Source: a virus
Length of the DNA: 55,398 nt
Reading direction: 5' to 3' (one strand)
IMG/VR virus record: IMGVR_UViG_3300027741_000080
Coordinates: 1 to 55,398 of that record
Shown: positions 109-31,675 of the stretch, piece by piece
Layout: every line of letters starts with the position of its first letter
Position numbering within the stretch: the stretch's first letter is position 1
Translations under genes and position numbers: made by a program
The notes under the pieces: model-generated
Told to the model about the DNA's origin: nothing
What the model saw: only the letters and a program-made list of their open reading frames with translations
Databases searched by the model: none

Positions 109-2904
109 GTGGCAAACGCTGAAATTAATTTTGACCCTACCAATAAGTTGCGTACCTCAAGCCCCCAGGCTTTGATTGATACTGACTTTGAGTATGGTAC
201 ACAGGTCTCCAAGTGGGAAAACCTTGCTATGACCAACAACCGCCCATTTGCTTACGCTAATCCTACTTCACTTGCAGTAACAGCTATGACTATTACTGGA
301 CGTACTGTTACAGTAAGCACTACATCTCCGCCAACAGTTGGCACTCCTGTTATTATTAATGACTCATACTTGTCTATTGCCAATGGCGTATTTGTAGTTG
401 AAACTGTTGTTGCTAGCACAAGTTTTACTTATACGGCTCGTGCTACAAGTAGTCTTGCTGGTGGCACATCAATTTTTGATTCTAATAAAACTTCTGTTAC
501 TCCAGGAATATATTACACAGCTAGCCAAATTAATCAAACTAATTTAACTGGTACTTCTGCTGTTGGTGTTAATAGTATTACCTCTGATAATTCAGCCAAT
601 ACCTCTAAAATTACAGTTGCTATGGCTAATGCTCACGGCCTCTCTTTAGGTAATGAGATTCAAGTTGCTTCGGCAACTACTGCTGCAACGGGCGCATTAG
701 GAGCATTTTATGTTGCTCAAGTACTCAGCCCTACTTCATTTGCGTATTATGCTCGCTCTCAAGTAGCAGCAGCCGTTGGTGCTACAGCAGATTTTAAAAT
801 TTATGCCCGTACGCAAGGTCAAGTTCTTCATCGCCCATTTGATGGTGGAGTTATTTTCTCATCTAATGCTGGCTCTAACTACGAGTCACAAATTCGACAG
901 ACTCGACGTTACTTCCGTTACCAATCTGGTAAGGGTATTCAACTGTCTTCGGGTACTATTCTTAAACCTAACTTCCAAATCGACAAATTATCATACGCTC
1001 AATCCACTGGTCTTATTACTATTACGTTTAAAGATGTTCACAACATTCAAACAGTTCCACCAGATGCTCAAATTACAATTGCTAATGCTAATGAACCTGC
1101 TTTTAATGGTACATATTTTGTTACTAATGTTGTTAATTATAATACTGTTACAGTTACTCCAACTGCAGGTAAGTTTACTGCTGACGCCACAGCCTCAGGA
1201 AACTACTACGTATCAACTTCAGGTTGGTATGGGGCCGTTAACCGCCTTGGTATTTTTGACCAGCAAAACGGTTTGTTCTTTGAATTTGATGGACAAACTC
1301 TTTACGCAGTACGCCGCAACTCAACTTATCAATTGTCAGGTCGTGCTAACGTAGTTGGTGGTTCAACTTCTGTAACAGTTAGTTCTTTAGCCACATTTGC
1401 TAATGCGGTATACACCAAGCAATTAACTGGTGGGGACTATGTTGTTATTAAGGGTCAATCATATCGTGTAGAAAGTGTTCAAAATGATAGTAATTTTACT
1501 ATCTCACCTGCTTACCGTGGTGCTACAGCAAACAACGTCATTATTTCTAAGACTATTGATACTAAAATGCCACAGTCGCAGTGGAATCTTGACACAATGG
1601 ACGGCAATGGGCCATCAGGATATAGATTAGATTTATCTAAAATGCAAATGTTCTACATTGATTACTCATGGTACGGTGCTGGGTTTATTCGTTGGGGACT
1701 TCGTGGAACAAACGGTGATGTACTTTATGTCCATAAAATGGCTAATAATAACGTTAACCAAGAAGCATACATGCGTTCAGGTAACCTTCCAGGTCGTTAT
1801 GAATCAGGAACTATTCCTCCAGTAACCAAGGTAACTAACGCGGTTGCTTCAACTGACACAACAATTACTGTAGCCGATACTAGTGCATTCCCAAGCACAG
1901 GTACTCTTTACATTAAAGACTACCAATATGTAGAATATGTATATTACAAAGGTAAGACTCCAACCACATTCCAAAATGTTGTACGCGCACAGGCTGGTAA
2001 AGGTACTGGAGCGCTTCCTATTACATCAACCACTGCTGCTGGTTCTAATACAATGACTGTTGCTACTACAGATGTTCAGATTGGGCAGCGCGTTATTGCT
2101 ACAAGTGCAACGGCTTTGTCAGATGGTACCTTTGTTACTGCTATTGGTTCAGGAACAGTTACACTTAGCCAAGCGGCATTATCTGCTGATCCAAGTGTTA
2201 TCTTTGTTTCTATGAACGATGGTAATGCTAAAACGTTTACACCAGCAACTAATCCAGTTACTGTTGAACTTGCTTATCCAACACTAGCCCCAACAATTTC
2301 TCACTGGGGTACATCGGTCATCATGGACGGCCGTTTTGATGATGATAAGTCTCTTGTGTTTACTTATGGTCAGACTTCATTTACTACTATTGCTGCTGGA
2401 ACTTCAAAAGGTTTGTTTTCTATTCGTGTTGCTCCATCAGTTGATAATGGTCAAATTGGTGCTTTTGGTGCACGAGAACTTATTAACCGTATGCAATTAA
2501 CGTTAAGAAATTTAGGTATTTCTACTAAAACTGCTAACGCAAACATGCTTGTACGTGCTTATCTAAATGGTGTTCCAAGTAGCGCTACAACTTGGACCAA
2601 TGCTGTAGGTGATATTGCTGGTACTGCAAACTCTAGCCTTGCACAAATTGCAGATTACGCTGCTGGGTCTACAACAGTTTCTGGTGGTGAAATTACCGCA
2701 GGTTTCTTAGTGGCTGGAACGGACCGCCTTGATTTGCTAGATGTGCGTGATTTAGGTAACTCTGTTCTTGGTGGCGGAGGAGCTAATTCAAATACTCAAA
2801 TATACCCTGATGGTCCTGATGTTTTAACTATTGTGGTAACTAATTTAGGTGGTTCATCTATTGATGTGCTTGGTCGTCTATCTTGGACTGAAGCACAAGC
2901 GTAA
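109..2904 (+). CDS. Large virion structural protein with repeated beta-rich modules
   Basis: This 931-residue protein starts with GTG, chosen because AGGAGA lies about 6 bases upstream. I recognise the opening (LRTSSPQALIDTDFEYG near residues 14-30) as typical of a conserved structural protein of environmental contractile-tailed phages; its exact place in the virion is unknown to me. The N-terminal half carries three modules of the form 'His-Gly-Leu...Gly...Val...Tyr-Val...Ser-Pro-Thr-Ser-Phe-x-Tyr' (about nt 277-480, 600-800 and 1000-1200). A second module type (SNTMTVATTDVQIGQRVIAT region, about nt 2027-2223) sits in the C-terminal half and recurs in other tail genes here. The C-terminal region, with VIMDGRFDDDKS near residue 742, looks like the conserved core. 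Position next to neck and tail genes supports a structural role; assignment to head-tail junction or baseplate periphery would be a guess. Confidence 0.75.
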   Translation: MANAEINFDPTNKLRTSSPQALIDTDFEYGTQVSKWENLAMTNNRPFAYANPTSLAVTAMTITGRTVTVSTTSPPTVGTPVIINDSYLSIANGVFVVETVVASTSFTYTARATSSLAGGTSIFDSNKTSVTPGIYYTASQINQTNLTGTSAVGVNSITSDNSANTSKITVAMANAHGLSLGNEIQVASATTAATGALGAFYVAQVLSPTSFAYYARSQVAAAVGATADFKIYARTQGQVLHRPFDGGVIFSSNAGSNYESQIRQTRRYFRYQSGKGIQLSSGTILKPNFQIDKLSYAQSTGLITITFKDVHNIQTVPPDAQITIANANEPAFNGTYFVTNVVNYNTVTVTPTAGKFTADATASGNYYVSTSGWYGAVNRLGIFDQQNGLFFEFDGQTLYAVRRNSTYQLSGRANVVGGSTSVTVSSLATFANAVYTKQLTGGDYVVIKGQSYRVESVQNDSNFTISPAYRGATANNVIISKTIDTKMPQSQWNLDTMDGNGPSGYRLDLSKMQMFYIDYSWYGAGFIRWGLRGTNGDVLYVHKMANNNVNQEAYMRSGNLPGRYESGTIPPVTKVTNAVASTDTTITVADTSAFPSTGTLYIKDYQYVEYVYYKGKTPTTFQNVVRAQAGKGTGALPITSTTAAGSNTMTVATTDVQIGQRVIATSATALSDGTFVTAIGSGTVTLSQAALSADPSVIFVSMNDGNAKTFTPATNPVTVELAYPTLAPTISHWGTSVIMDGRFDDDKSLVFTYGQTSFTTIAAGTSKGLFSIRVAPSVDNGQIGAFGARELINRMQLTLRNLGISTKTANANMLVRAYLNGVPSSATTWTNAVGDIAGTANSSLAQIADYAAGSTTVSGGEITAGFLVAGTDRLDLLDVRDLGNSVLGGGGANSNTQIYPDGPDVLTIVVTNLGGSSIDVLGRLSWTEAQA

Positions 2905-2928
2905 TTATTTGTAGAATAAGGTGTCTTA

Positions 2929-3441
2929 ATGAAATATTTTTCATTTAATTCAAGCACTAAAAAATGGCAATCTATAAATGCTCCGCTTCCTTTGCCAGCA
3001 CCAGTTATTAAGTATGATACAAGCGGCTCTTCTGACAACGTATTTACTCTAACCTCTACCTCATTCGCAAATGTAACAACAACTGCTCAAGGAACTGTTC
3101 AAGTTTCCATTACTTGTCCATACGATTTATACGCAATTGTTGATTACTCTGCTTGGCTTACTGCTGGACCAAACTCTTCTTCTGAAAGTATCCGAGTATC
3201 TACGACTGCAACTGGTACAACAACTTGGTCTCCTGGTGGCGCTAAAGGTTGGGGTAATGCATTGTATACAACTGGTCTTGCAGCCAATGGTTCTGGGCAA
3301 AGTGCTTCAAGTAGTTTCACAACTTTACTAAACGCTGGTACAACAACTATTACAATGCAGGCGTACAGAAGCGCAACTACACTTACAACAGCAAACATAA
3401 GTTTTCCTTATTTGTCTGTTACTCCAGTTACGTGGGCATAG
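2929..3441 (+). CDS. Small putative structural protein
   Basis: This 170-residue protein follows the large structural gene after 24 bases, with AAGGTG upstream of the ATG. It is rich in Ser, Thr, Ala and Gly, without cysteine clusters apart from one Cys near residue 64, and has alternating hydrophobic/polar stretches typical of beta-sandwich virion proteins (for example VQVSITCPYDLYAIVDYSAW around residues 56-75). There is no signal peptide or membrane helix. I do not recognise the family. Location and composition suggest a decoration or adhesion-type virion protein, an inference only. Confidence 0.6.
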   Translation: MKYFSFNSSTKKWQSINAPLPLPAPVIKYDTSGSSDNVFTLTSTSFANVTTTAQGTVQVSITCPYDLYAIVDYSAWLTAGPNSSSESIRVSTTATGTTTWSPGGAKGWGNALYTTGLAANGSGQSASSSFTTLLNAGTTTITMQAYRSATTLTTANISFPYLSVTPVTWA

Positions 3442-3443
3442 TA

Positions 3444-3545
3444 ATGGCTTGTAGAACAGGGTGTCCAACCCAAGACCACGCTGATTATGGCGAGTGTTTA
3501 TTTGCTGCTCGTATTAATATAGATAAAACTAGTTTGAGGCCTTAA
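3444..3545 (+). CDS. 33-residue Cys-containing mini-protein
   Basis: The ORF reads MACRTGCPTQDHADYGECLF and then AARINIDKTSLRP. It starts two bases after the preceding stop and its TAA overlaps the next ATG (TAATG), which fits a coupled translated gene rather than an accident. It has three cysteines (residues 3, 7 and 18) and a conserved-looking 'TGCPTQDHxxxGEC' core of a kind I recall from small ORFs in actinophage structural regions. The function is unknown; a CxxxC...C set could bind zinc or iron. Confidence 0.6.
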   Translation: MACRTGCPTQDHADYGECLFAARINIDKTSLRP

Positions 3546-4282
3546 TGAGTAGAGCGTACACCCCAAGCGGGCGGTTTGACACAGATTTTGAAACCAATGA
3601 AATCCATGACGCTATTACTAAAGACCTTACTAATCCAGTAGGTACTACGGTTCAATGGTTTGTATGGAACTCTTCAGCTTCTAATGTTGACCCAATTTAT
3701 GACGTTGGATCAAACTATTTAACTAGTACTACGGGCGCAAGCATTAATACCACAATGTCTGGAACTGTTGGAACCACGGCTATTACTGTTGTTTCTACTG
3801 CTGGAGTAACTGTAGATATGGCAGTTAACGGCTCAGGTATTGCTAAGGGTACTCTAGTTAAAAGTATCTCTGGAACAACAATAACGCTGACTTTACCTAA
3901 CGTCAACAACATAGCTGCAGCTACAGCTGTAAACTTTACAAGTGATGGTCGTCAATGGAAAACCCCTGTAGATGTTCCTGCTATTCGTGCTGTTGTTAAA
4001 CAAAGTCAAACTAACCTTATTGAAGAAGGTTTTTACAATGCTGACCGTTTGCATTTAACAATTGATAAAGAAATACTTTCTTCTTTAATTCCAGGTGTTT
4101 TAGATGATCCAGACCCATTAAATCGTGACCGTATTGTTTGGAAGGGTCAAGTATACCGACCTCTTATGAATCAATTATTAGGTATTATTTCTGAAAGATT
4201 TGCTATTATTAGTTTTGAATGTCAACAAATTATGCCTGAAGAACTGGTTAATGATCCACAGTTCCAGGCTTATGCTAACTAG
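3545..4282 (+). CDS. Putative neck/head-tail connector protein with inserted beta module
   Basis: This 245-residue protein has an N-terminal segment (FDTDFETNEIHDAITKDL) and a C-terminal segment (DVPAIRAVVKQS, then RIVWKGQVYRPLMNQLLG) that look like one conserved fold. They are separated at about residues 62-133 by a Thr/Val/Gly-rich insert with the core VVSTAGVTVDMAV...GTLVKSISGTTITL. The same kind of insert occurs in the tail sheath and other tail proteins of this phage. The flanks resemble small myovirus head-closure or neck proteins by position and size, but I cannot name the family. Translation is coupled to the 33-residue ORF upstream. Confidence 0.6.
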   Translation: MSRAYTPSGRFDTDFETNEIHDAITKDLTNPVGTTVQWFVWNSSASNVDPIYDVGSNYLTSTTGASINTTMSGTVGTTAITVVSTAGVTVDMAVNGSGIAKGTLVKSISGTTITLTLPNVNNIAAATAVNFTSDGRQWKTPVDVPAIRAVVKQSQTNLIEEGFYNADRLHLTIDKEILSSLIPGVLDDPDPLNRDRIVWKGQVYRPLMNQLLGIISERFAIISFECQQIMPEELVNDPQFQAYAN

Positions 4283-4291
4283 GAAAATACT

Positions 4292-4603
4292 ATGACAGAA
4301 AAATGGCAGAAAAAAGAAGGACAGAATAAAAAGGGTGGCTTAAATGAAAAAGGCCGTAAGTCTTACGAGTCCTCACACCCTGGCTCCGATCTAAAAGCTC
4401 CAGTTAAGTCTGGAGACAATCCTCGTCGTGCATCTTTCCTTGCTCGCATGGGAAATGCACCTGGCCCAGAACGTAAGCCAAATGGTGAGCCAACACGTTT
4501 GCTTCTTTCTCTGCAAGCTTGGGGAGCATCTTCTAAGGCTGACGCTAAGAGCAAAGCAGCCGCTATCTCTAAGCGCAATGCCGCAAAGAAGGGGAAAAAA
4601 TAA
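4292..4603 (+). CDS. Basic DUF6321-like protein
   Basis: This 103-residue, strongly basic protein has a conserved block reading GLNEKGRKSYESSHPGSDLK, followed by NPRRASFLARMG. That pattern matches, from memory, the small DUF6321-type proteins of cyanophages and large eukaryotic viruses; the family number should be confirmed. The C-terminus is an Ala/Lys tail. It opens a tight run of small basic genes, and its stop overlaps the next start (TAATG). Charge suggests nucleic-acid binding or packaging with the virion, but no activity is known to me. Confidence 0.65.
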   Translation: MTEKWQKKEGQNKKGGLNEKGRKSYESSHPGSDLKAPVKSGDNPRRASFLARMGNAPGPERKPNGEPTRLLLSLQAWGASSKADAKSKAAAISKRNAAKKGKK

Positions 4604-4803
4604 TGGCTGAGAAGAAAAAACCCGCAAAGCCTAAATCCAAGGTCAATGAGGCTGGTAATTACACTAAACCAGCATTACGTGCATCTTTGTTTAAAAAAAT
4701 TAAGGCTGGTACAAAGGGCGGCGACCCAGGTGAATGGTCAGCCCGTAAAGCCCAACTGCTTGCGTCAGAATATAAAAAAGCTGGCGGAGGATACAAAGAC
4801 TAA
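4603..4803 (+). CDS. Small basic protein with 'GEWSARKAQLLA' motif
   Basis: This 66-residue, Lys-rich protein has a recognisable core: VNEAGNYTKPALRASLFKKI, then GDPGEWSARKAQLLASEYKK and a GGGYKD end. I recall near-identical cores next to DUF6321- and DUF5872-like genes in other viruses, where it is uncharacterised. It is coupled on both sides by TAATG overlaps. It is probably a nucleic-acid-binding or virion-packaged peptide; function unknown. Confidence 0.65.
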   Translation: MAEKKKPAKPKSKVNEAGNYTKPALRASLFKKIKAGTKGGDPGEWSARKAQLLASEYKKAGGGYKD

Positions 4804-5045
4804 TGGCTAAGGAAAAATCACAAAAGTCTTTAGACAAATGGTCTGATGAAAAATGGCGTACTTCAGACGGTAAGGAATCTAAAGGTAAGAAACGATACCT
4901 TCCAGATAAGGCTTGGGATTCCCTTAGTGATAAAGAAAAAATTGCTACTAATAAGGCTAAAGCTGCTGGTAATAAAAAAGGTAAGCAATACGTAGCACAG
5001 CCTAAAAAAATAGCAAATAAGACTAAAAGTTACCGAAAGGGTTAA
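4803..5045 (+). CDS. Small basic DUF5872-like protein
   Basis: This 80-residue, highly basic protein carries the pattern LDKWSDEKWRTSDGKESKGK, then RYLPDKAWDSLSDKEK and a Lys-rich end with KGKQYV and KKIANKT. The W..EKW / RYLP.KA arrangement is, from memory, the signature of DUF5872-type proteins found in giant viruses, algal viruses and marine or freshwater phages. It sits directly after its usual partner. No catalytic residues are apparent; nucleic-acid binding is plausible from charge. Confidence 0.65.
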   Translation: MAKEKSQKSLDKWSDEKWRTSDGKESKGKKRYLPDKAWDSLSDKEKIATNKAKAAGNKKGKQYVAQPKKIANKTKSYRKG

Positions 5046-5047
5046 AC

Positions 5048-5284
5048 ATGGCTGCTAAAAAGAAAGAAAGTCCTGCTACACTTAAAGTGTCAGGTAAAGT
5101 TCACCGTGTCTATAAAGACAAAAAAGGTGACGTTGTAGTTGACCATGCTGGCACTAAAAAAGAAAATGGCAAATACGACAAAATTGATTTAACCAAAAAA
5201 GCTGGTGCCAAGACAGTTAAAGCTGGTGTAAAAGCCACCAAAGATTGGCATAAAAATAACCCTCATAAAAAGATAGGTAAATAG
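5048..5284 (+). CDS. Small basic protein, 'KVHRVYKDKKGDVVVDH' family
   Basis: This 78-residue basic protein is the fourth of the small-protein run. It begins with a Lys-rich leader and has a compact beta-like core (SGKVHRVYKDKKGDVVVDH), then KYDKIDLTKKAG, an Ala/Lys stretch, and TKDWHKNNPHKK. I recall the same core in unannotated proteins of other environmental phages. The start is two bases after the preceding stop. Function is unknown. Confidence 0.6.
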   Translation: MAAKKKESPATLKVSGKVHRVYKDKKGDVVVDHAGTKKENGKYDKIDLTKKAGAKTVKAGVKATKDWHKNNPHKKIGK

Positions 5285-5285
5285 T

Positions 5286-5459
5286 ATGTGCGCATTATGT
5301 GGATGTGGAATGAAAAAGGGTCAAGCTGGATACGGCAAAGGTAAAGGCGCTGCAAAGAAGCTATCTCCAAAGCAAAGCAAAATTGCTGCAAAAGCTGGAA
5401 ACCCAAAGAAAATTGATGCTGCTGATTTAGCCGCATTACGAAAGACCAAGAAAAAGTAA
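5286..5459 (+). CDS. 57-residue Cys/Lys mini-protein (MCxxCGCG type, copy 1)
   Basis: The protein opens MCALCGCGMKKGQAGYGKGK and continues as a Lys/Ala-rich tail ending RKTKKK. Its N-terminal C-x2-C-x-C arrangement is shared with the next two genes. It starts one base after the preceding stop and its own stop overlaps the next ATG. The Cys cluster could hold zinc or another metal; the basic tail could bind DNA. No known function. Confidence 0.6.
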   Translation: MCALCGCGMKKGQAGYGKGKGAAKKLSPKQSKIAAKAGNPKKIDAADLAALRKTKKK

Positions 5460-5572
5460 TGTGTGCAACATGTGGCTGTGGACAGCCTAAAAATAAGCAT
5501 GGCGAAAAAACTCTTGCCGCTGCTAATAAAAAGTTTGCTAAGAAAAAACCAGCAAAGAAGGTGAAAAAATAA
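5459..5572 (+). CDS. 37-residue Cys/Lys mini-protein (MCxxCGCG type, copy 2)
   Basis: The sequence is MCATCGCGQPKNKHGEKTLA followed by AANKKFAKKKPAKKVKK. The N-terminal MCATCGCG is nearly identical to the MCALCGCG of the preceding gene, so these two are probably a tandem duplication. It is joined to both neighbours by TAATG overlaps. Function is unknown; a metal-binding knuckle with a cationic tail is what can be seen. Confidence 0.6.
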   Translation: MCATCGCGQPKNKHGEKTLAAANKKFAKKKPAKKVKK

Positions 5573-5784
5573 TGTGTAAAAAGTGTGGTAAAGGAAAGTG
5601 CGCTTGTGGTCCAATGAAGGCTTCAGATAAGAAGCAAGATGCTAAGACCATGAAGGGTATGACTCCTGCACAGAAGGCTAAGTTCGCTAAGGAAGATAAG
5701 AAAATGGACAAGAAGCCTATGTCTCGCAAGGAAGATACCAAAAAAGATAACGCCCTTGCTAAGAAAATTAAGGGTAAAAAGTAG
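5572..5784 (+). CDS. 70-residue Cys/Lys protein (MCKKCGKGKC type, copy 3)
   Basis: It opens MCKKCGKGKCACG and continues with a Met/Lys/Asp-rich region (MKGMTPAQKAKFAKEDKKMD) and a GKK end. The Cys spacing (residues 2, 5, 10 and 12) extends that of the two preceding mini-proteins, and it is the last gene before a terminator. The middle 'MTPAQKAKF' helix is reminiscent of uncharacterised small virion-associated peptides. Function unknown. Confidence 0.6.
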   Translation: MCKKCGKGKCACGPMKASDKKQDAKTMKGMTPAQKAKFAKEDKKMDKKPMSRKEDTKKDNALAKKIKGKK

Positions 5785-5827
5785 GGACTGTAGTTCCAAA
5801 GAAGTATCCTATAAATAGGAATGATTT

Positions 5828-5849
5828 AGCCCTTGCAAAGGGGCTTTTT
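5828..5849 (+). terminator. Intrinsic terminator after the small-protein operon
   Basis: AGCCC and GGGCT arms enclose a short loop (TTGCAAAG) and are followed by five T residues. It lies 44 bases after the last mini-protein stop, where a new transcript or attenuation point is expected before the tail operon. Confidence 0.7.
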
Positions 5850-5934
5850 CATTTACACTTATAAGTAGTTCCATTGCAGGAACTGAAATACCCACTGCGA
5901 AATACCCCTGCGACTCCGCCAAGGAGATTACATT

Positions 5935-6060
5935 ATGGCAAGCGATAGAATCTCTTCAGGTTCCGTCACTGACTTTTACGACGGCGCTGCTGGCGATGAG
6001 TCCTTAGGTAATATGGTGTGGTTTCTTATGGGTATAGCTCGTAGTGGGGGCTTTCGTTGA
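5935..6060 (+). CDS. 41-residue protein of unknown function
   Basis: The start is supported by AAGGAG 8 bases upstream. The peptide opens MASDRISSGSVTDFYDGAAG and ends with a short hydrophobic segment (MVWFLMGIARSGG) that could be one weak amphipathic or membrane-seeking helix. Its TGA overlaps the TTG start of the next gene, so it is probably translated and coupled to the tail-completion genes. No family recognised. Confidence 0.5.
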   Translation: MASDRISSGSVTDFYDGAAGDESLGNMVWFLMGIARSGGFR

Positions 6061-6374
6061 ACGAACAACCTGATGCTATTCTTGGAGCAGTTAAAAACCA
6101 AGAACATGAACTCACTTCTCTATTAAAAAGTACGGCTACTCAACACGGCTGGGACGATCACATTGTATCCAATCTTACCGCTAAGGTTGTTGGCGACCAA
6201 ATTCATGCTATATACCCAGAACATTTACGGGATTCTGTATTCAAACTTGAGTATGGACATGAGGCTAACCCACCTAGACCTGCATTTAGAGACTTTAATG
6301 TTAAATCCGAAAGCCTTATCGATCAAGCATTAGGTGAAGGTTTTATTAACGAATTAATGCGGGTGATGTCATAA
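6057..6374 (+). CDS. Putative head-tail joining / virion assembly protein
   Basis: This 105-residue protein has a TTG start overlapping the previous stop; GGGGG about 8 bases upstream may serve as ribosome site. The pattern of a charged N-terminus, a middle helix (HIVSNLTAKVVGDQIHAIYP), and a turn LEYGHEANPPRPAFRDF is like gp10-type head-tail connector proteins, in which a conserved 'E(Y)G...PP.P..R' segment is common. This is a weak, pattern-level match. Placement just before the tail-completion protein and sheath supports a junction role. Confidence 0.5.
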   Translation: MNEQPDAILGAVKNQEHELTSLLKSTATQHGWDDHIVSNLTAKVVGDQIHAIYPEHLRDSVFKLEYGHEANPPRPAFRDFNVKSESLIDQALGEGFINELMRVMS

Positions 6375-7003
6375 TGACATTTGTAATTGCTGAAGATGCC
6401 GCCCTTAAAACCTACCTTACTGGCATGACGGTATCAGATGAAAAAAACGCTTCCCGTTCTGTTAAAGTCTGGTTTGGGTTTCCTGATGTAGAAATCCGTG
6501 CCCAAGAATTTCCTTTTGTAACCATAGAACTTGTCAATGTTCGCAACGCTATTGAGCGCCAAACCTCTGGTTTTATCTACGACCAGGATTTTTCAGGTAC
6601 GGTAACCCCTTCAGGTAATTTGTATTATGGATATGAAGTACCTATTGCTTATGATTTGTTGTATCAAATTAGGTCTTATGCCAGACATCCACGTCATGAC
6701 CGCGCTATAATTTTTCAGTTAAGCCAAAAATTTCCTGGTATGCGTGGGCACCTCCCAGTCCCTAACGACCTAGGCACTTCCACTGCTTATCGCCATATGT
6801 TCCTTGAAAGCACATTAAAAAGCGATAGGGCCGAGGGTGACAATGGAAATAAACGTCTTCTACAAAATATCTACACAATAAGAGTTGTTAGCGAAATGAC
6901 TCCTATGCCTAATTCAGTTACACCTGGACCAAAACCAACATCCGTAAAAATTAATAAAGAAGTTACTTCATCAGTTCCTTCTACAATGACAATTGTTAAC
7001 TAG
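6374..7003 (+). CDS. Putative tail completion/terminator protein
   Basis: This 209-residue protein lies immediately upstream of the sheath gene, as tail terminators (T4 gp15-like) often do. Visible features are VKVWFGFPDVEIRAQEFPFV (about residues 30-49), a segment YEVPIAYDLLYQIRSYARHP (about residues 91-110) characteristic of proteins measuring joint diameter in myovirus tails, and a polar C-terminus. It is coupled to the preceding gene through a TAATG overlap. The assignment rests on context plus the 'P.DLLYQI.......' pattern, so it stays tentative. Confidence 0.5.
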   Translation: MTFVIAEDAALKTYLTGMTVSDEKNASRSVKVWFGFPDVEIRAQEFPFVTIELVNVRNAIERQTSGFIYDQDFSGTVTPSGNLYYGYEVPIAYDLLYQIRSYARHPRHDRAIIFQLSQKFPGMRGHLPVPNDLGTSTAYRHMFLESTLKSDRAEGDNGNKRLLQNIYTIRVVSEMTPMPNSVTPGPKPTSVKINKEVTSSVPSTMTIVN

Positions 7004-7030
7004 TTATTAAAACCTTACTAAGGAGAAACA

Positions 7031-9640
7031 ATGGCTTCAGCCCCATATACTAAGCCTGGCGTGTACGTTGAAGAAACACTTACGCCTAATTTGCCTGTTG
7101 CACCTGCAATATCTAACTCTGTTGCTGTACTTATTGGTGTAGCTGACCGTGGTCCTACAACCACATCTGGTGCTAACGTTGTAGGTGTTCCTACTCTTGT
7201 AAGTACTTGGTCTGACTTTGTTAACACGTTTAGTTTTGGTTCTAGTACTAATACTTTTAGTGGCGCTGGTTTAAGTATGTCCACAACAGGTACAGCTTCT
7301 TCAGGAGCAACTACTGTAACAGTTGCATCTACTGCAGGTATTACTGTGGGTATGGGAGTGTCTGCTACAAACATTGATCCTTCTACTATAGTAACAGCCA
7401 TTTCTGGTAGCGTAGTTACATTATCTTTAGCAACTACTGCAGCCTTTACAGCGGCTGCTATTAGTTTTAATAACAACCCACTTAAGTACGCTGTTAAATC
7501 TTTCTTTGATAATGGTGGCGCAGGGTTATACGTACAGCGTGAAATCAATACAGACGCTACAAAAGCAGGTATTAGTTTCCGAGATAGTAACGGTACAGCA
7601 ACAACTGTTAATACAAACAGTACGACCGCAGTAACTGCAACGGCTTCCGCCTCTGCTACATCACTTGCAGTTCTTAGTACCTCAGGAATAGTTGTTGGTC
7701 AAAATATAACAGCGGTTTCAGGTTTAGCTGCAACTACTACAGTTACCGCTATTTCATCAGTAGTAGCAACAACTATTTCTATTAATACAGCATCATCTGG
7801 AGTTTCTACTATTACAGGTATAACACCTACTGGAGTTGTTCCTGGTCAAATGATTACAGGTACAACTAGTATTACTGCAGGTACTTATGTAAAATCTACT
7901 ACTGCAAGTACCGTTGTTATTTCAGCTACTACAGCTAGTGCTATAAGTAATCAACCATTAGTATTTACTGCTAACAATCTTACAATATCTCCTGCTACAA
8001 CTGGAACTGTTGCTGATGCGGCAGTAGTAACTCTTGTAGGTAATACGTTTGATTTTACAACAAGTACAACTGCACTAAGTATTATTTCTACGGCTGCAAC
8101 ATTTCCAACAGCTACTGTTGGTAAATCAATTAGTTTTTCTGGCGTAACCGCTACAGGATATACTGGATTAAACTCGGGCCGTTATGTTATTAGTGCAGTA
8201 TCCGCTGATGCCAGTTCTATCAGCATTGTTTACAAGGGAACTGCAATACCTATTGCTGGTCAATCAACCGCTGTATCTGTCGTTAATGCTGCAGTAAGTA
8301 CAACCCCAACACTTACAGTTACTGCTAAAGACCCAGGATCATGGGGGCAAGATGTATGGGTTGGTATTTACCCTAATAACAATGCACTTTACTTTGATCT
8401 GCACGTATTCTACTCAGCAACTGCGACCTTATCTACACAGTTAGTTGATGCTAACCGAGTAGAGCGTTTTACTAAATTAAGTATGGATTCAACAGACCCA
8501 CGTTATTTTGTTAATAACATATCTTCTAAGTGGATTACTGTGGCAGATGCTAATTCAGCGGCTACTGATTACAACGACCTTCCAGCGTTTACGGGTGCAT
8601 GGGGAACAGCAATTACTTCAGCCACTTCAGCAAATGTTATAGCTACTACAGGAGCTTTTACTTGGAATTCATCAGGATTTAGCACCTCAACAATTCAAGC
8701 TGCTAAACTTGGCCTTGCTTCAACTACAAATGCAACATTAGCTGCTAGTAGCCAAACAGGGTCAGATGGAACAACAACAGCAACAGCGGCTACGTATACC
8801 TACCCACAACTGGATAATATTTCACAACCACTTATTATTAACCATGTTGCTAGAACAGATGCGACAAGCATTAATGCTTTAACATTATATGCTGCAACTC
8901 GTACTGATTCTTTTGTAGTAATTGACACATTAAACGATACTGTAAGTAACACTTTAAGTGCTATTAAGAGTTATAACACTAATCAAAACTATGGTGCTGC
9001 TTATTACCCTAATATTGTTATTAATGATCCCGCTTCAACTACAGGCGCTCCTAAAACAATTGCACCAGGTGGAGCAGTTGCTGCTCTGTACACTGTTACA
9101 GATACTTCAAGAGGCGTATTTAAGGCACCTGCAGGTTCAGCTACCCGAATTAACTCAGCCGTATCTGTATATTCTTTAAGTTCTGATGAATTTAACACAA
9201 TTGGTGGAACTACCCCTAATCTAAACATTATTCGTTTTGTCCCAGGAGCGGGTATTTGCATCATGGGTGCTCGTACATTAAAGAGTGCCAACACTGATAT
9301 ATATGTACCAGTACGTAGATCGCTTAATTATTTATCATCAAACCTAAAAAACATTACACAGTTTGCAGTGTTTGAGCCTAATGATGCAAATCTATGGGCA
9401 AAAGTTAATGGTATTGTTTCAGGATTCCTTGATGGGTTCTGGCGCAACGGTGGTTTGAGTGGAGCATCTTCTGCTCAAGCTTACTACGTTAAGTGTGATG
9501 GTTCAATTAATACTCCAGCAGCGGTAGCCGCTGGTGAACTACGCATTGAAGTTGGTGTTGCTTTACAGCGACCAGCCGAATTTGTAATTATTAAAATTGG
9601 TCAAATTGATGGTGGCGCTACTGTCACCACTTCGATTTAA
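7031..9640 (+). CDS. Contractile tail sheath protein with extra inserted modules
   Basis: This 869-residue protein forms the contractile outer tail. The N-terminus KPGVYVEETLTP and IGVADRGPTT are diagnostic of sheath proteins, as is the C-terminal region (NITQFAVFEPNDANLWAKVN and the end RPAEFVIIKIGQIDGG). Between the N-terminal strands and the sheath core (DPGSWGQDVWVGIYP near residue 435) about 350 residues are Thr/Ser/Val-rich inserts. One is a clear module at residues 84-147 (TVASTAGITVGMGV...TAISGSVVTLSL), a longer related stretch lies at 210-313, and a third, differently patterned stretch follows. This makes it longer than ordinary sheaths of roughly 450-650 residues. The inserts should project from the sheath surface. 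An AGGAGA ribosome site precedes the ATG. Confidence 0.95.
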   Translation: MASAPYTKPGVYVEETLTPNLPVAPAISNSVAVLIGVADRGPTTTSGANVVGVPTLVSTWSDFVNTFSFGSSTNTFSGAGLSMSTTGTASSGATTVTVASTAGITVGMGVSATNIDPSTIVTAISGSVVTLSLATTAAFTAAAISFNNNPLKYAVKSFFDNGGAGLYVQREINTDATKAGISFRDSNGTATTVNTNSTTAVTATASASATSLAVLSTSGIVVGQNITAVSGLAATTTVTAISSVVATTISINTASSGVSTITGITPTGVVPGQMITGTTSITAGTYVKSTTASTVVISATTASAISNQPLVFTANNLTISPATTGTVADAAVVTLVGNTFDFTTSTTALSIISTAATFPTATVGKSISFSGVTATGYTGLNSGRYVISAVSADASSISIVYKGTAIPIAGQSTAVSVVNAAVSTTPTLTVTAKDPGSWGQDVWVGIYPNNNALYFDLHVFYSATATLSTQLVDANRVERFTKLSMDSTDPRYFVNNISSKWITVADANSAATDYNDLPAFTGAWGTAITSATSANVIATTGAFTWNSSGFSTSTIQAAKLGLASTTNATLAASSQTGSDGTTTATAATYTYPQLDNISQPLIINHVARTDATSINALTLYAATRTDSFVVIDTLNDTVSNTLSAIKSYNTNQNYGAAYYPNIVINDPASTTGAPKTIAPGGAVAALYTVTDTSRGVFKAPAGSATRINSAVSVYSLSSDEFNTIGGTTPNLNIIRFVPGAGICIMGARTLKSANTDIYVPVRRSLNYLSSNLKNITQFAVFEPNDANLWAKVNGIVSGFLDGFWRNGGLSGASSAQAYYVKCDGSINTPAAVAAGELRIEVGVALQRPAEFVIIKIGQIDGGATVTTSI

Positions 9641-9653
9641 GGAGAATTGACAC

Positions 9654-10286: not shown

Positions 10287-10325
10287 TTTGTAGTATACTA
10301 ATATGGATAATAATAAGGAGAATCA

Positions 10326-11126: not shown

Positions 11127-11148
11127 ATACGAAAACTACGTTGATTTA

Positions 11149-11259: not shown

Positions 11260-11267
11260 GTGTTGAA

Positions 11268-14040: not shown

Positions 14041-15352
14041 TTATGTAGCTATTGAGTTTCCGTTGTCGCAAAATCCGCCACAACGTATTTCTTCGTTTAC
14101 TCTAAAACAAGAACGCTATGCTCATGAAATTGCTACAGCCAGGTTTAGAGATTGGGGCGTACGTTATACAAGTATAAAGCCTGGTGACCCTGTACGTTGT
14201 GTGCTTAGAGGTAAAGATTCTAGCCGTGAATTTGTAGGTTATGTACATGATATTAAACCTAATATTTCTCCTAGTGCCAATTTTACTGAAGTAACAATTA
14301 TTGGAGCTTCGTACAGATTAAAGCAAGCTAGACAACGTGTGTTTGAAAACATAACTTCTTCGGATGTTATACGTTCTATTGCTAATGATTATAATTTTAG
14401 TAGCGCTCACGTTGTAGATCACCCAAGAGTGTTTGAACAAATAACGCAAGCTGGACACACTGAACTACAACTTATGAGCCGTCTTGCTAAACAATGTGGA
14501 TACTCACTTAGAATTGAAAATACATCAATTTACTATGCTCCATTTACATATAATTATTCTCAAAAACGTAACAACGCTAAAACATTTGTTATGAGTGAAG
14601 CTAACGATCCAGGTGGTTCTACGTTATATTCATTTCAATTAACTCTTGGAGATAGTGTTGCGTATCGAGATTCATATAAGTCTGCTGTTCAAGTAGGTGG
14701 CGTTAACCCACAAAATAATGAAGTTAATCTTGTAACTAATCCTCGCCAGCAAACTATTAATCAAACTAGTGCTACTGAATTTTTTGATAGTTTTGCTACT
14801 AATGTTGTTGCTCCTAGTTATGAAGCTGCTGCGTACGAAGCAAAAGCTGCGGATGAACGCAACAGATTTCCTTACCGTGCTCGTATACAAGTTATTGGAA
14901 CTCCAGAGCTTAAGCCAGATGATCCTATTTATTTAGATGGTCTTGGACCTAATTACACTGGTTATTGGGTTGTTATGTATACAGAGCATAGTGTTGTTGA
15001 ACAATCTCCAAACATTTTAAAATATACAACAATTGTTGATGTAGGTGCTGACTCTATTGGACAAGCTCAAGTATGGGAAGGTCAAGTAGTTACTGCTCCA
15101 ACCAATATAAGTATAAGAGCACTAGTTCCAGATACTAAAAATGTCCCAGTTCAAAACGCATCATTATTAGTTGAAGGTACTGGTTATTATAATAACTCTG
15201 GATTTACTGAAGTTACTAATAGAACTACAGAATCAAATGTTAAACCTTACACTTGGCAAGCAATAAGCCCTTCATATTTAAATAATTTATCTGATATTAA
15301 AAATCGCACTAATTCTGTAATTAATAGGTTAAGGAACAAAAATGTACTCTGA
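14033..15352 (+). CDS. Baseplate hub protein (gpD / gp27-like)
   Basis: This protein is 439 residues when started at the ATG overlapping the preceding stop; an in-frame TTG at 14003 would add ten unlikely residues. It has the late-control-D pattern: SRDF-like opening replaced by SFTLKQERYAHEIATARFRD, then PGDPVRCVLRG, EFVGYVHDIKP, and the helical insert SSDVIRSIANDYNF followed by ELQLMSRLAKQCGYSLRIEN. It forms the trimeric hub ring carrying the spike. The C-terminal 80 residues are polar and extended. The next gene supplies the OB-fold part of the spike. Confidence 0.85.
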   Translation: MFNYVAIEFPLSQNPPQRISSFTLKQERYAHEIATARFRDWGVRYTSIKPGDPVRCVLRGKDSSREFVGYVHDIKPNISPSANFTEVTIIGASYRLKQARQRVFENITSSDVIRSIANDYNFSSAHVVDHPRVFEQITQAGHTELQLMSRLAKQCGYSLRIENTSIYYAPFTYNYSQKRNNAKTFVMSEANDPGGSTLYSFQLTLGDSVAYRDSYKSAVQVGGVNPQNNEVNLVTNPRQQTINQTSATEFFDSFATNVVAPSYEAAAYEAKAADERNRFPYRARIQVIGTPELKPDDPIYLDGLGPNYTGYWVVMYTEHSVVEQSPNILKYTTIVDVGADSIGQAQVWEGQVVTAPTNISIRALVPDTKNVPVQNASLLVEGTGYYNNSGFTEVTNRTTESNVKPYTWQAISPSYLNNLSDIKNRTNSVINRLRNKNVL

Positions 15353-15611
15353 CCTTATTACTGGTGACTTATCAGATAAAAGATTTTTTGGTATTTATCG
15401 GGGGTTAGTTATAGATATTAATGACCCTAATAATCAAAATAGAATTAAACTGCAAGTACCTCAAATTTTAGGTAAGGCTGTTACAGGTTGGGCTTGGGGA
15501 GTAAGTCCAGCCGTAACAGCTACGTTATTTGTGCCAGACCCAGGTACAGGTGTTTGGGTAATGTTTGAAGGCGGAGACCCCAATTTCCCACTATGGCTAG
15601 GAGCGTTCTAA
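15342..15611 (+). CDS. Gp5-like OB-fold spike base protein
   Basis: This 89-residue protein has FFGIYRGLVIDINDPNNQNR, KLQVPQILG and PGTGVWVMFEGGDPNFPLWL, the classic gp5/VgrG OB-fold signature ('G.V..N.DP...GR..V.VP', 'P..G..VWV.FE.GDP..P.WLG'). It lacks any lysozyme or needle domain, so the membrane-piercing part must come from another protein. It overlaps both neighbours: 11 bases with the hub gene and one with gp25. Confidence 0.85.
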   Translation: MYSDLITGDLSDKRFFGIYRGLVIDINDPNNQNRIKLQVPQILGKAVTGWAWGVSPAVTATLFVPDPGTGVWVMFEGGDPNFPLWLGAF

Positions 15612-16057
15612 TGGCTATTATTTTTAATTCTGTTTCTTCAAATAGCGTTATACCTGTAGAAACATATTCAATAGCTCTTCCATTTAATATATCTAGTAAT
15701 AATAAAATAACTACTGTACTTGACTCTTCTCCTAAAGCGTGGAGAGATAGGGTACTAAGTTTGTTATCTACTGGAATTAATGAACGTGTTTGGTATTATA
15801 ATTATGGTGCTAATTTAGATGGACTTTTATACGAAAGCGCAGCCAATGCTGTTGAAATAGGTCGTCAAGCTATTAAAGAAATGTTTATTTCTTGGCTTCC
15901 ATCTCTTACTCTTCGTCAAGTGGTTCCTGGCTACGATAGTGATACTGGAACGCTTGAACTTAGTATTATATATAAACTTCCCAGCGGGGACACAGATTCT
16001 GTTACAATATCTACAGCCTCTCTTACGGCTGCAGGCGAAACTATTAAGGGCGTATAA
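15611..16057 (+). CDS. gp25-like baseplate wedge protein
   Basis: This 148-residue protein starts at the ATG overlapping the previous stop; an in-frame upstream start at 15593 would put it further inside the spike gene. The middle (WRDRVLSLLSTGINERVWYY) and the region EIGRQAIKEMFISWLPSL followed by a final strand pair fit gp25/lysozyme-like wedge proteins, which nucleate sheath assembly. It sits between the OB-fold spike gene and gp6/J, the normal order. Confidence 0.75.
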   Translation: MAIIFNSVSSNSVIPVETYSIALPFNISSNNKITTVLDSSPKAWRDRVLSLLSTGINERVWYYNYGANLDGLLYESAANAVEIGRQAIKEMFISWLPSLTLRQVVPGYDSDTGTLELSIIYKLPSGDTDSVTISTASLTAAGETIKGV

Positions 16058-17766
16058 TGGCTAATAATTTGTACCTTCCACAGGTAGATTACACTTCACG
16101 AGACTACGCGTCTATTCGTGATGATTTAATTGCGCTTATCCCTAACTTTACTCCACAGTGGACTTCGCGTGATGCTAACGATGTTGGTATTGTACTTCTT
16201 GAGTTGTTCTCATATTTGGGCGATCTTCTTAATTTTCAAATTGACCGTGCTGCTAATGAATCATATTTAGGTACATCTACCCAACGTGACACAGTTATTG
16301 CTATCGCTAGTTTACTTAACTACACACCAAATGGTAATAGTCCTGCTTCGGGTATAGTTACATTTTCTAATTCAGGCGCGTCTGACGTTGTTGTTCCTAA
16401 AGGTACTCAAGTTAGTACATCTTCTGATGGAGTAAACCCCAGCATTATTTTTACTACAACCGCTGAGATTAATGTACCAGCATTTGCATCAGGCGTTAAT
16501 GGTGTAGCAACGGCTACAGTGACTCAAGGGATTTCAACAACTGAAACTATTGGTACGTCTGATGGAACTATTAATCAAATTTATGCTCTTACTAATCAAA
16601 ATGTATTTACAGAAGTTGGTTTAATAGTTTCTGTAAGTGGTCTTCAATACACAAAAGTTCAACATATTGTTGATTATGGTCCTGACGAACCTGTGTATTC
16701 AACTTATACTGATGGAACTAACACTACTTATATTTTTTTTGGTGATGGTGATTCAGGCCGTGTGCCACCATCAGGAACTTCAATTAGCGTTACGTATAGC
16801 TATTCTGCAACTCCAGGAAGTCTTGGAAACGTTGCTTCTGGTACTGTAGTTAATATTAATTCAGACAATATTTCGTTTGGTACTCTTACTGTTACAAATG
16901 CGGCTGTTTTTGCAGGCGGTGCTGACCCTGAGTCTACAGATTCAATTCGTATTAATGCACCAGCAGCATTGCGTACTCTTAACAGAGCCGTATCTTTATC
17001 GGACTACGGTCAATTAGCTTTACAGGTTAGCGGTGTAGCTAAAGCAAATGCTATTGGTACTTCTCTTGCATCTATTGTTTTGTACATTGCTGCCAACGGT
17101 GCTGCGGCTAGTTCTACTGCATTTAAAACAACTGTAGCTAATTACTTTACAAATAAAATGCCTCCTGGAACATCTCTTAAAGTTTTAGACTTTACCCCAG
17201 CATATCCATATTTAAATGCCACAGTTAACGTATTGCCTAATTACAATGTTTCTAACGTAGGTGTTGCAGCACAGTCTGCTTTGTACAGTTTGTTTGCTTT
17301 TGACAATGTAACTTTTAATGACACAATTTCTCAAGGAGATGTCATCTCTTCATTAAAAGCAGTAGAAGGTGTAGCAGGCGTTACGCTTAATGACTATGAA
17401 AAACTTCCTTCTATTTACTCACAATACGCAACGGTAACTGCAACAACTACATCTTCAACAACATTAACTACTTCGGTTACTGTAGATAGTTCGGCTGGGT
17501 TATGGGCAGGTGCCGCTATTACATCTATAACTAATGGTTCTTCAACTTTGTATTCTTATACTACCCCTGTAACTACTATTCAAAGTATTACTAACAGTAC
17601 TACGGTAGTTATAACTAGCACTCCTACAGCAGTTACCATAGCTAGTGGTGCTGTTATTACAGTTCAAGGTAACGCGGGAACTACAGATTTAACTTGTGGA
17701 ATCAATGAAGTTCCTGTACTTAACCCTAACTACATCTATGTCTTTACTACTGGTGGAACATCGTAA
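16057..17766 (+). CDS. Baseplate wedge protein gp6/J
   Basis: This 569-residue protein opens LPQVDYTSRDYASIRDDLIA and has FTPQWTSRDANDVGIVLLEL, VPKGTQVST and the C-terminal half FGDGDSGRVPPSGTSISVTY, all characteristic of the baseplate J / gp6 family. It builds the wedge ring that relays the contraction signal. After the J core, a roughly 75-residue Thr/Ser-rich stretch (about nt 17446-17676, TVDSSAGLWAGAAITSI) interrupts the end; it resembles the module in the sheath and neck proteins. Coupled on both sides by TAATG. Confidence 0.9.
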   Translation: MANNLYLPQVDYTSRDYASIRDDLIALIPNFTPQWTSRDANDVGIVLLELFSYLGDLLNFQIDRAANESYLGTSTQRDTVIAIASLLNYTPNGNSPASGIVTFSNSGASDVVVPKGTQVSTSSDGVNPSIIFTTTAEINVPAFASGVNGVATATVTQGISTTETIGTSDGTINQIYALTNQNVFTEVGLIVSVSGLQYTKVQHIVDYGPDEPVYSTYTDGTNTTYIFFGDGDSGRVPPSGTSISVTYSYSATPGSLGNVASGTVVNINSDNISFGTLTVTNAAVFAGGADPESTDSIRINAPAALRTLNRAVSLSDYGQLALQVSGVAKANAIGTSLASIVLYIAANGAAASSTAFKTTVANYFTNKMPPGTSLKVLDFTPAYPYLNATVNVLPNYNVSNVGVAAQSALYSLFAFDNVTFNDTISQGDVISSLKAVEGVAGVTLNDYEKLPSIYSQYATVTATTTSSTTLTTSVTVDSSAGLWAGAAITSITNGSSTLYSYTTPVTTIQSITNSTTVVITSTPTAVTIASGAVITVQGNAGTTDLTCGINEVPVLNPNYIYVFTTGGTS

Positions 17767-20700
17767 TGGCTCAAGTACCAGTTACTGCTCCTAACTTTAC
17801 AGTTAATGCAGATGCACGACCATCTAATTATTTAGTTAATCATATTAGTTGGGATGCGCCTAGTGAGAATATTAACTGGTCTGAGGTACGCCTTATTAGA
17901 AACACCGCGGGATACCCAGTAAACATTAATGACGGTGTTCAACTGTTTACCGAACAGTCTTACTCTATGTACGCAAAAGTTGCATCTGTACACGCAACAG
18001 GTTCTATTTCAGCCATTACTTATACAGGTGGTGGTACTGAAGGCTCTGGTTCCGAATTTACTACGTATACCGCAGTAAAACAAAGTGCTACTTCTGGTTC
18101 TGGTACAGGAGCTACTTTTGATATTGTACGTTCTTTAGATGTGCTTGGTGCAGTTTCCTCAGTAACTATTCGCTCCGCTGGCGGTAGTTACGCAGCAACC
18201 AACACTATTACTATTCCTAAAGAAAGTATTGGATACACGGCTACAGGTTTTGGTGCTTCAGTTACTGACTTAACAATTACTGTAGGCAGTATCACTAGCG
18301 GCGCATACGGTATTAAAACATTAGATACAATTGCTCAACCTGCTTTGCAAAGTACGTCGGTTAACGGAACTTATACTAACGTAACTGCTTTAAATACAGA
18401 TACCGCTGCTGGTTCTGGCGTATCGTTTGATGTAACTAGAACAAGCGGGTCTTCTACTGCAACTATTAGATCAACAGGTTCTGGGTATAAAGTTGGAGAT
18501 ATTGTACGCATTCCTGGATACAATCTTGGCGGTAGGGTATCTACTACAGACTTAGGGCGCACAGCGTCTTTTCATGTTTATGATAACGGTTCTGCTACAG
18601 GACTTACTACCAATCCTGGTTATGGGGTTACAGGAACTTATTTAAGAGCTCCTAAGTATTATTACTCAGTGTTTCTCAAGTACACAATTAATGGCGAAAC
18701 TACTGCTAGATGGAAAAGAATAGCTACTACATCTAGTTATGCTATTAAAGACAACGGCACATTAGATACCATACTTGGACATCTTCCTTTATTTTATCGA
18801 AAAGATTATCAAGGCAAAGATAATAAAGACTTAAGAGATTTTATGCGCCTTATTGCTTTTGCGTATGACATAGCAATTACATACAACAACGCCGTGTTTA
18901 ATTCGTCTAACTCTTTAAATATAGATGATAAACTTTTAGACCTTACGCTTAAACAGTTTGGTTCTAAATTAAGTGACGTTGTTAGTGTAGCTCAAGGAAA
19001 AACTCTTTTAAATAATATTATTAGGTCTTATCAAGAATCTGGTTCTCTTAAAGGTATTCAAACTTTTAGTTCTAGTAGAACTGGATATGATACCTCTGTA
19101 GTACCTGGTCGTAACTTACTTCAAGATGCTGACACATCTTCGTTTGTTGAATCAACTGGCGCCTGGTGGCCTTTAGCAGCAAGTTCTTACGCAGCAGCTT
19201 CTCCTTATGCATCTAACCTTGTTTGGGCTGCTCCAATTTCTGCGGGTTCTGCTTCTTCAACTATTACATCTTATTTTGATACTAATGGTGTAACTCTTAC
19301 TGGAGCTAGTAACGTAGGAACTCTTATTACGGTAGCAAATACTACTGGTTTACTACCTGGAAGAGCGCTAACAAAAACAGCTGGTAGTGGTACTCTTGCA
19401 GCTGGAACAGTAGTTACCTCTATTGTTAGTTCTACTCAATTTAAAGTTAATATTGCTCCTTCGTCTTTATCGGGAGCAACTTTAGTTGCGTCTTCTAACA
19501 TTTTGTCAGGTATGGCAAAAAATACATCAACAACTGTAGCAACAACCGCATATTATTTAGGGCTTAGACCAGGTCAAGCTGCTGCAACTGCTGCTTCTGG
19601 TACTAACGTAGTTACTGTTAAACCTTCTTTAGCTAAAGTTGGCGATTACATTATTGCCACAAATACTAGTGCTGCTAGCAAAAGTTTTTTCCCACCAAAT
19701 ACAGTAGTAACTGCCGTTAATGCGTCATCTGTTACTCTATCTAATAACTCTTTAGCATCAATTGCTTCAGCAACTGCGCTTGTGTTTACCTCTAATGTAC
19801 AAGCTGCAAGTTGGTCGGGTTCAACTACCAATGCAGTACAAGCAACTGTTTATTCAAGTGATTACACATCTTCTTTATCTGCTTTGCCTACTGTAGAGCC
19901 TGGAAAACCATACGCATTTAGTTTTTGGTTTAACGCAGGAGGAACTGCTGCTGCAACAACTACTGCAAGTATTACTTTTTATAATGCTTCTGGAAATAGT
20001 ATTTCTACTACTAGTGCTTCTTCTACGGTAGGAGCTGTTGTATCTACTACCTCTTGGTACAGAAATAGTGTTACAGGTACTGCTCCTGCAAGTGCGGTAT
20101 ACGCGCAACCAAGTTTTGCTGTGTATCCAAATTATTTTGTAGATGCTATGCAATTTGAAAGTTACATTACCTCTAATGCTGCCTCGTTAACTTCAAACGT
20201 AGTTACCATACTTACAAATGTTGCTCATGGTTTTACTACTACTAATAACGTAACTGTAGTTGGTTATGGCTCACCTATTGATGGAACTTTCCCTATTGCA
20301 AGTATACCAACAACTACATCTTTTACTTACGCAGTTACTGCTAGTAATATTACTGCTATAAATACTACTGGATACGTTGCTTCAGCATCCACATTTCAAG
20401 ATGCTCGTACAACTACAGTAAATATATTAGCTAACCGTAGAAATCTTATTACTAATCCAACATTTACAACAGCAACTACAGGTTGGTCAGTTAGTACATC
20501 GGCAGTTACAATAACATCAACTAATGCTCAATCAATTTATGGAACTACGTCTTTAAAAGTAGATTCTCCAGTATCAGCAGTTACATATATTTATAATACC
20601 AACAGAATTGCAGTAGTTCCTAGCAATGATTACACTGCGTCTGCTCATGTTAAATGGGGTTCTGGTGCTGGAGTTATATATACAATTGAAATTGATTGGT

Positions 20701-31669: not shown

Positions 31670-31675
31670 CGTAAG

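Follow-up and report, generated by a model that had tools for sequence, protein, structure and literature searches.

In phage tail sheath proteins, added (type 2/3) domains are placed away from the tube, and a role in adsorption or stabilisation has been proposed for them in the sections of Evseev et al. that treat them (2022; PMC9230969). Immunoglobulin-like (Ig-like) domains, among them Big_2, I-set and FN3, are mobile between structural proteins of different phages (Fraser et al., 2006, as summarised in passages of PMC10684548 and PMC10276861). In lactococcal phages of the 936 type, carbohydrate-binding modules sit on neck and tail proteins, and the relevant parts of PMC6669499 report measured host binding. 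Passages of Smug et al. (2023; PMC10684548) describe RIFT-related barrel domains common to tail and neck proteins and domain exchange in neck passage proteins, so that neither the shuffling of domains among structural proteins of phages nor the presence of RIFT-related domains in their tail and neck proteins is new. Here we describe a module, F1, that recurs in five different particle proteins of a virus with a contractile-tail gene block. The virus is represented by the 55-kb IMG/VR record IMGVR_UViG_3300027741_000080 (55,398 nucleotides, referred to as a whole as the window), and the module comprises approximately 62 residues that are rich in T, S, A, G and V.

Like the sheath domains of Evseev et al., F1 is an extra beta-rich domain on a conserved sheath core; those domains are often Ig-like sandwiches in the sections concerned (PMC9230969), whereas F1 is a predicted barrel and forms one family common to neck, baseplate and other virion proteins. 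F1 and the phage Ig-like domains are both mobile, but F1 lacks a Pfam match and is predicted to fold differently. With the modules of the 936-type phages F1 shares a location on neck and tail; binding has been measured for the former, according to the same parts of PMC6669499, whereas F1 is known from sequence and models. The I-domain of the P22/CUS-3 coat protein, as described in parts of PMC11243222, is a six-stranded beta-barrel inserted in a virion protein, an arrangement that is predicted for F1. The term 'Tail sheath' occurs nowhere in the main text of Smug et al., and the F1 family is not described in the passages considered (PMC10684548). A literature search of titles and abstract openings, with most subscription journals outside its reach, found no published description of the module. 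Mobile virion domains as such are known; what appears to be new here is that the family of this one has no match in Pfam and a predicted barrel fold. We lean towards the view that F1 is an autonomously folding, inserted and mobile six-stranded barrel domain of phage virion proteins that decorates the outer face of the particle.

Results

F1 recurs in five particle proteins

The F1 profile was built by iterated search and then scored against the window; an initial seed search with two sequences recruited only those two. All modules and module-bearing genes given below lie on the + strand. The best-scoring copy is in the neck protein (3545-4282; independent E-value, iE, 3e-22), in which an AlphaFold model and structure alignment indicate a stopper/neck-like core fold with one F1 module. 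The tail sheath protein (7031-9640, 869 residues; assigned by phrog_17610/phrog_23, by Phage_sheath_1C just below its cut-off and by sheath structures) holds three copies, with iE values of 5e-21, 4e-14 and 3e-9. One lies at site A, between a W..F motif and an FF.NGG motif (7286-7474), and two lie at site B (7634-7795 and 7787-7969). The large virion structural protein of the phrog_5838 family (109-2904; PHROG E 8e-259) carries a copy at 2023-2205 that is detected by both the F1 profile (iE 6e-13) and a further profile, A4. This protein is homologous to cyanophage structural proteins of approximately 1,000 residues, and its best tblastn rows are Synechococcus phages, with 96-100% query coverage and 41-43% identity. 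The F1 copies of these three proteins, the only ones compared in this way, are 28-43% identical pairwise, so that they did not arise by recent duplication inside the genome. The consensus of 214 aligned copies reads TgTatsGstTlTVaSTaGivVGm.VtGtGIpaGTtVtsIsGTTVTLSqatTaa.sgatvTFtN.

The remaining two carriers hold weaker copies. In the gpI-like protein (17766-21116), module 1 (19293-19448) scores an iE of 3e-3 and module 2 (19584-19790) an iE of 9e-5, and the A4 profile detects only the second (1e-5). Profile comparison nevertheless relates each of them to F1 at 92% probability, a value as high as which was reached in 0 of 100 shuffles. The baseplate-J protein (16057-17766) has, close to its C-terminus, a divergent F1-like module (17422-17667) that gives only 26% profile probability against F1, yet 0 of 100 shuffles reach 26%. 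The profile probability of this module against the first gpI-like copy is 92.6%, and its homologue in contig L007 scores 2e-8 with the F1 profile and 7e-5 with a later profile. As a control for the profile search, open reading frames (ORFs) of the window (at least 50 residues, six frames) were subjected to 20 rounds of local-composition shuffling, which resulted in 29 matches at iE<1, the best of them 0.039, versus 3e-22 to 3e-3 for the true copies. The original prediction had placed one related beta-rich module in all five of these proteins, and the recurrence was confirmed at every site that it named, with strong support in the neck, sheath and phrog_5838 proteins and weak support in the gpI-like and baseplate-J proteins. 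It had implied a single sheath copy where there are three, and a second module family, F2 (see below), was missing from its list.

F1 occupies sites that are empty in related neck and sheath proteins

We compared the neck protein with its homologues in a set of 57 sequences, kept from 97 matches because they are non-identical and contain both end motifs (near-identical sequences occur among them, and contig L005 stands for the window). A 79-residue insert, which in the window protein comprises residues 56-134 (3710-3946, with the F1 core at 3752-3940), is present in 10 of the 57, flanked by 'DPIYDVG' and 'GR.W', while the other 47 have 0-14 residues at the same place. F1 was detected at E<1e-3 in all ten insert-bearing necks and in none of the 47 with an empty site. 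The closest pair with and without the insert is 79.5% identical outside it, and the empty site is directly visible in a separate alignment of 21 sequences.

We also examined whether the neck module tracks the rest of its gene. Among the ten carriers, distances in the N-terminal part correlate with those in the module (r 0.50, p 0.001), whereas module and C-terminal part are uncorrelated (r -0.12) and the N- and C-terminal parts barely correlate (r 0.23, p 0.08), which suggests, from only ten sequences, recombination near the module end. A version with eight carriers gave r -0.05 for the N- and C-terminal parts and r -0.40 for module and C-terminal part. In the 47 empty-site necks the N- and C-terminal parts correlate at r 0.90, although this set is more diverse, so that its contrast with the carriers is partly an effect of range. 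Individual neck genes show mosaic patterns: those of contigs L006, L009 and L050 have C-terminal parts that are 92-94% identical and modules that are 48-62% identical, with a joint near the module end, and L049 and L050 show the opposite pattern, with 76% identity in the modules and 61% in the C-terminal parts.

For the sheath, the conserved core was evident from matches to sheath structures (up to Z 24.9) and to the Streptomyces coelicolor sheath (E 3e-48), the structure comparison covering the core only. Of 42 sheath matches, 34 were kept (at least 480 residues, non-identical although some are near-identical, with L005 standing for the window), and site A could be measured in 28. In 19 of these sheaths the two motifs of site A are 15-16 residues apart, in six 28-40 and in three 90-105, and the sequence of the solved S. 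coelicolor sheath likewise has a short stretch only. The window gap is 90 residues; those of L049 and L009 are 97 and 105 residues and are unscored there by the F1 profile, the stretch of L049 being F1-like by eye only. At site B (iE<0.01), 6 of the 34 distinct sheaths carry F1, 18 carry F2, 10 carry neither and none carries both, where two of the F1 entries (L051 and L052) depend on a weak 7e-3. The sheaths of L030 and L033 share 92.9% identity over 604 residues, and a single F2 module of 64 residues sets them apart. At the DNA level the two F2 copies of L030 are 74% identical, which rules out recent tandem duplication as the source of the extra copy, and the difference may reflect either loss in L033 or gain in L030.

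The presence or absence of the module in the neck, its distribution over sheath sites A and B and the L030/L033 pair support the proposal of a mobile domain on several virion parts. For the baseplate-J protein, alignment places the C-terminal module in the window, in L007 and (by alignment only) in L008, and shows none in L023, L054, L055 or L056. The more distant baseplate-J-like proteins of L076 and L088 have F1 near the C-terminus.

F1 is found in unrelated carriers and in other genomes

At E<=0.01, the A4 profile, which was built from copies of several of the searched records, matched 19 of 32 virus records, or 12 of 25 when the seven records fetched with the module itself, all of which matched, are left aside. 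A profile search of the whole record of cyanophage S-RSM4 resulted in four F1 matches at E<=1, of which three have E<=4e-8, and the same kind of search found no F1 at E<=1 in Streptomyces phage pSt2308. One module, used as a tblastn query against cultured phages, matched nothing, an outcome that the low-complexity filter probably explains. With the consensus as query, viral contigs yielded 588 candidate stretches, of which 137 were confirmed and 80 of those kept, and at least five were confirmed among the 596 candidate stretches listed for genome contigs. Three of the latter are Verrucomicrobia (L149, L150 and L151) with 6, 9 and 10 F1 copies, in reading frames that span the whole 10-kb locus; the two that were scanned, L149 and L151, match the autotransporter-associated repeat PATR. 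Contigs L069-L148 and L149-L153 were fetched with the module query, and their counts describe spread, not frequency. The original prediction that this phage has placed the domain on its parts thus holds for the placement on several virion parts, but not for a restriction to one phage, since the family also occurs in other viral contigs, a cyanophage and Verrucomicrobia.

The carriers are diverse. Among 20 further viral carriers that were scanned, some match head-tail adaptor, virion, tail, baseplate-wedge or tail-fibre families and one matches none. F1 was located within several PHROGs families at E 5e-5 to 0.06, matches that we take to be the same module inside those families. Pairwise comparison of modules of at least 48 residues that share at least 14 three-letter words identified 36 pairs that are 60-84% identical and whose carriers, once the module is masked, have no match at E<=0.01, which indicates the same domain in otherwise unrelated proteins. 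These identity counts, and the composition counts below, omit L005, L037 and L045 (one contig, whose compared proteins are identical to those of the window) and the repeats L046, L074 and L086; other near-identical contigs remain in them. In the top pair, F1 is 84% identical over 61 residues between a 252-residue virion protein (phrog_563) and an 821-residue tail-fibre-like protein, the masked carriers being unmatched. At the DNA level, blastn aligns the two loci over the module alone (75% over 158 bases), and tblastx adds two weak short matches elsewhere (E 7.5e-4).

Such a degree of identity bears on whether T/S/A/V-rich beta segments could have come to resemble one another without common descent. 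A strong composition bias, with 70% of module residues being T, S, A, G or V, and the weak relationship of the F1 and F2 profiles speak for convergence of this kind. However, F1 shows an ordered positional conservation that shuffling does not reproduce, and 84% identity over 61 residues joins unrelated proteins, so that for F1 this explanation is largely refuted and we consider it highly improbable.

The module is predicted to fold as a small beta-barrel

An AlphaFold model of the neck protein, based on the 21-sequence alignment, has a mean predicted local distance difference test score (pLDDT) of 76 and a predicted template modelling score (pTM) of 0.62. Within it, the module forms six strands between residues 66 and 132, with pLDDT of 85-94 in the ten-residue blocks from 71 to 130 and 72 and 77 in the flanking blocks, while the chain on both sides of the module aligns to phage neck, stopper and connector chains. 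The best solved match of the module is the tail tube of Acinetobacter phage Mystique (9n71, residues 103-180; Z 8.9, root-mean-square deviation, rmsd, 2.0 over 70 residues, 23% identity), and a chain from Arthrobacter phage Bridgette reaches the same Z of 8.9 at an rmsd of 3.0. Matches at Z 6-7 are to a tailspike, a chain of the P22 complex, a phage capsid chain, F1/V1-ATPase barrels and Uba1. From these comparisons, the F1 fold is predicted to be a small six-stranded beta-barrel.

The structural match to Mystique is good, but sequence similarity alone is not significant: Mystique was the top hit of a PDB sequence search with the F1 profile at E 0.021. No paper mentioning '9N71' was found in a literature text search, most subscription journals being outside it. 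The P22 match concerns residues 222-344 of a 422-residue chain in the gp1-gp5-gp4 complex, which we take to be the I-domain of the coat protein. It reaches only Z 6.5 (rmsd 2.3 over 69 residues), which is below the safe level of the tool, and no P22 sequence is among the five PDB matches of the F1 profile at E<=10, which gives no support to sequence homology with the I-domain.

The original prediction had regarded the module as Ig-like and perhaps adhesive, that is, as a beta-sandwich on the virion surface that weakly binds carbohydrates of host or particles. Precedent exists, in that the transfer of Ig-like domains from one phage structural protein to another is known, an Ig-like fold is common among added sheath domains (in the sections cited of PMC9230969) and neck and tail carbohydrate modules bind the host in lactococcal phages (in the parts cited of PMC6669499). 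However, four module sequences matched no Pfam family, Ig-like ones included, at E<=5, although the scan that covered them detected Big_3_5 (E 6e-13) and, below its cut-off, fn3 (E 0.002) in the neighbouring protein (21097-23499); a Pfam scan of the whole proteins gave no match over the modules. NCBIfam returned weak and unconvincing matches only (best E 0.0033, with 17 bits where the cut-off is 268). Among the folds listed by the structure aligner, the comparison points to barrels, with the model closest to small ones. The scarcity of aromatic and charged residues in the modules (see below) also speaks against such a domain. An Ig-like identity of the module is therefore not supported, and we judge an Ig-like adhesion domain to be improbable.

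The neighbouring protein used as positive control, which follows the gpI-like one, has genuine Ig-like content of its own, with three Big_3_5 stretches and a weak fn3 match below its cut-off.

Module composition fits a structurally maintained fold without a shared binding site

Charged residues (D/E/K/R) constitute 3.4% of the modules versus 13.1% of the rest of the same proteins, and W/Y/F/H 3.7% versus 10.2%. Side-chain nitrogen amounts to 0.106 atoms per residue in the modules versus 0.258 in the rest. Conservation is highest in columns of G, V/I/L, T, S and F, and no conserved polar or aromatic site was seen in the module column conservation. Together, composition and conserved columns fit a fold that is kept for its structure without a shared binding site.

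The same features could be expected of a tolerated and cheap passenger, that is, a neutral or selfish domain spread by recombination among repeat-like T/S-rich segments, harmless to assembly and otherwise without function. The lack of a conserved surface site and the low nitrogen content of the side chains agree with this possibility, as do the neck module distances of the ten carriers, which do not track the C-terminal part. In contrast, the length of the neck insert is identical in all ten carriers even though module identity drops to 48%, which suggests selection for the fold. We regard a passenger of this kind as unlikely, though less so than an Ig-like adhesion domain.

A second module family and other features of the window

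Profiles seeded from other beta-rich stretches identified a second family, F2, with five copies in the window. Three lie in the phrog_5838 protein, at 283-471 (iE 3e-11), 592-786 (iE 7e-13) and 1003-1215 (iE 1e-10), one in the gpI-like protein at 20175-20384 (iE 2e-20 with its own seed) and one near the N-terminus of the Big_3_5/fn3 protein at 21181-21378, found with its own seed and related to the other F2 profiles at 98-99%. The F2 profiles match one another at 95-99% probability. Between the F1 profile and the F2 profiles the link is weak (2-67%), and the first gpI-like copy, a member of F1, matches one F2 profile at 83%. We keep F1 and F2 as separate families that are weakly linked and possibly of common origin.

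The C-terminal part of the gpI-like protein (20433-20960) matches NF048003 GTA_spike_fiber at E 1.9e-8, scoring 35 bits where the cut-off is 36. Between the neck and tail genes (4292-5784) lies a run of short lysine-rich ORFs, several of which start with Cys motifs (MCALCGCG, MCATCGCG, MCKKCGKGKCACG). Genes for tRNA-Thr, tRNA-Tyr(GTA) and tRNA-Asn(GTT) and a queuine tRNA-ribosyltransferase-like gene (phrog_887) occur at 31598-31831 and 51117-52667. Tyr and Asn tRNAs with G34 are substrates for queuosine, which would link these two tRNAs to the phrog_887 gene.

Discussion

In the reading towards which we lean, phages would insert F1, with its approximately 62 residues and six strands, into loops or termini of virion proteins while the core fold of the carrier remains unchanged, and the module would then be gained, lost, exchanged and multiplied independently of that carrier. 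By analogy with added sheath domains generally, F1 would lie on the outer face, at a distance from the tube. There it would act as a decoration built into the chain, which may alter contacts between neighbouring subunits or provide a weak surface contact in many copies. Such contact or stabilisation is favoured over specific sugar binding because the module has no conserved polar or aromatic site.

Several points weigh against this reading. Its weakest step is the orientation and function of F1, since both the outer-face position and the contact role are inferred. The two gpI-like copies and the baseplate-J copy are weak members of the family: the former are absent from the lists of broader later profiles (iE<0.1 in one and iE<1 in another), and the latter, the weakest copy, has no hidden Markov model match in the window. 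F1 also occurs in the phrog_5838 homologues of L043, L048 and cyanophage S-RSM4, and for that reason the copy in this protein is probably ancestral and not a recent insertion. Thus, the possibility that the segments are normal parts of their families, without insertion, does not hold for the neck and sheath but probably describes the phrog_5838 copy. All ten neck inserts share length and site, which may point to a single original insertion, and the one-module difference between near-identical sheaths concerns F2, not F1. As for the fold, the sheath model predicts its modules poorly, with ten-residue means of 39-62 at site A and mostly 27-56 at site B, so that the fold of the sheath modules rests on homology to the neck copy. 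Furthermore, the module-only structural matches besides Mystique and Bridgette lie at Z 6-7 and, according to the warning of the tool, possibly reflect a common arrangement.

A wider proposal, which we put forward tentatively and consider possible but on balance doubtful, is that F1, with F2, belongs to an unnamed superfamily of clip-on barrels of tailed phages that is present in nearly all classes of outer virion protein (capsid-associated, neck, adaptor, tube, sheath, baseplate and fibre). It would constitute a second great mobile fold beside the Ig-like one, with the P22 I-domain and the Mystique tube segment as isolated cases of known structure, and multi-copy proteins of Verrucomicrobia would share it.

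Mobile accessory domains of virions are usually discussed as Ig-like, and F1 is predicted to be another fold. Such a family, unmatched in Pfam and spread over neck, sheath and baseplate proteins, would account for part of the beta-rich but unannotated mass of the structural proteins of aquatic phages. Finally, natural pairs with and without a module, such as the 93%-identical sheaths, are usable to test what such domains do.

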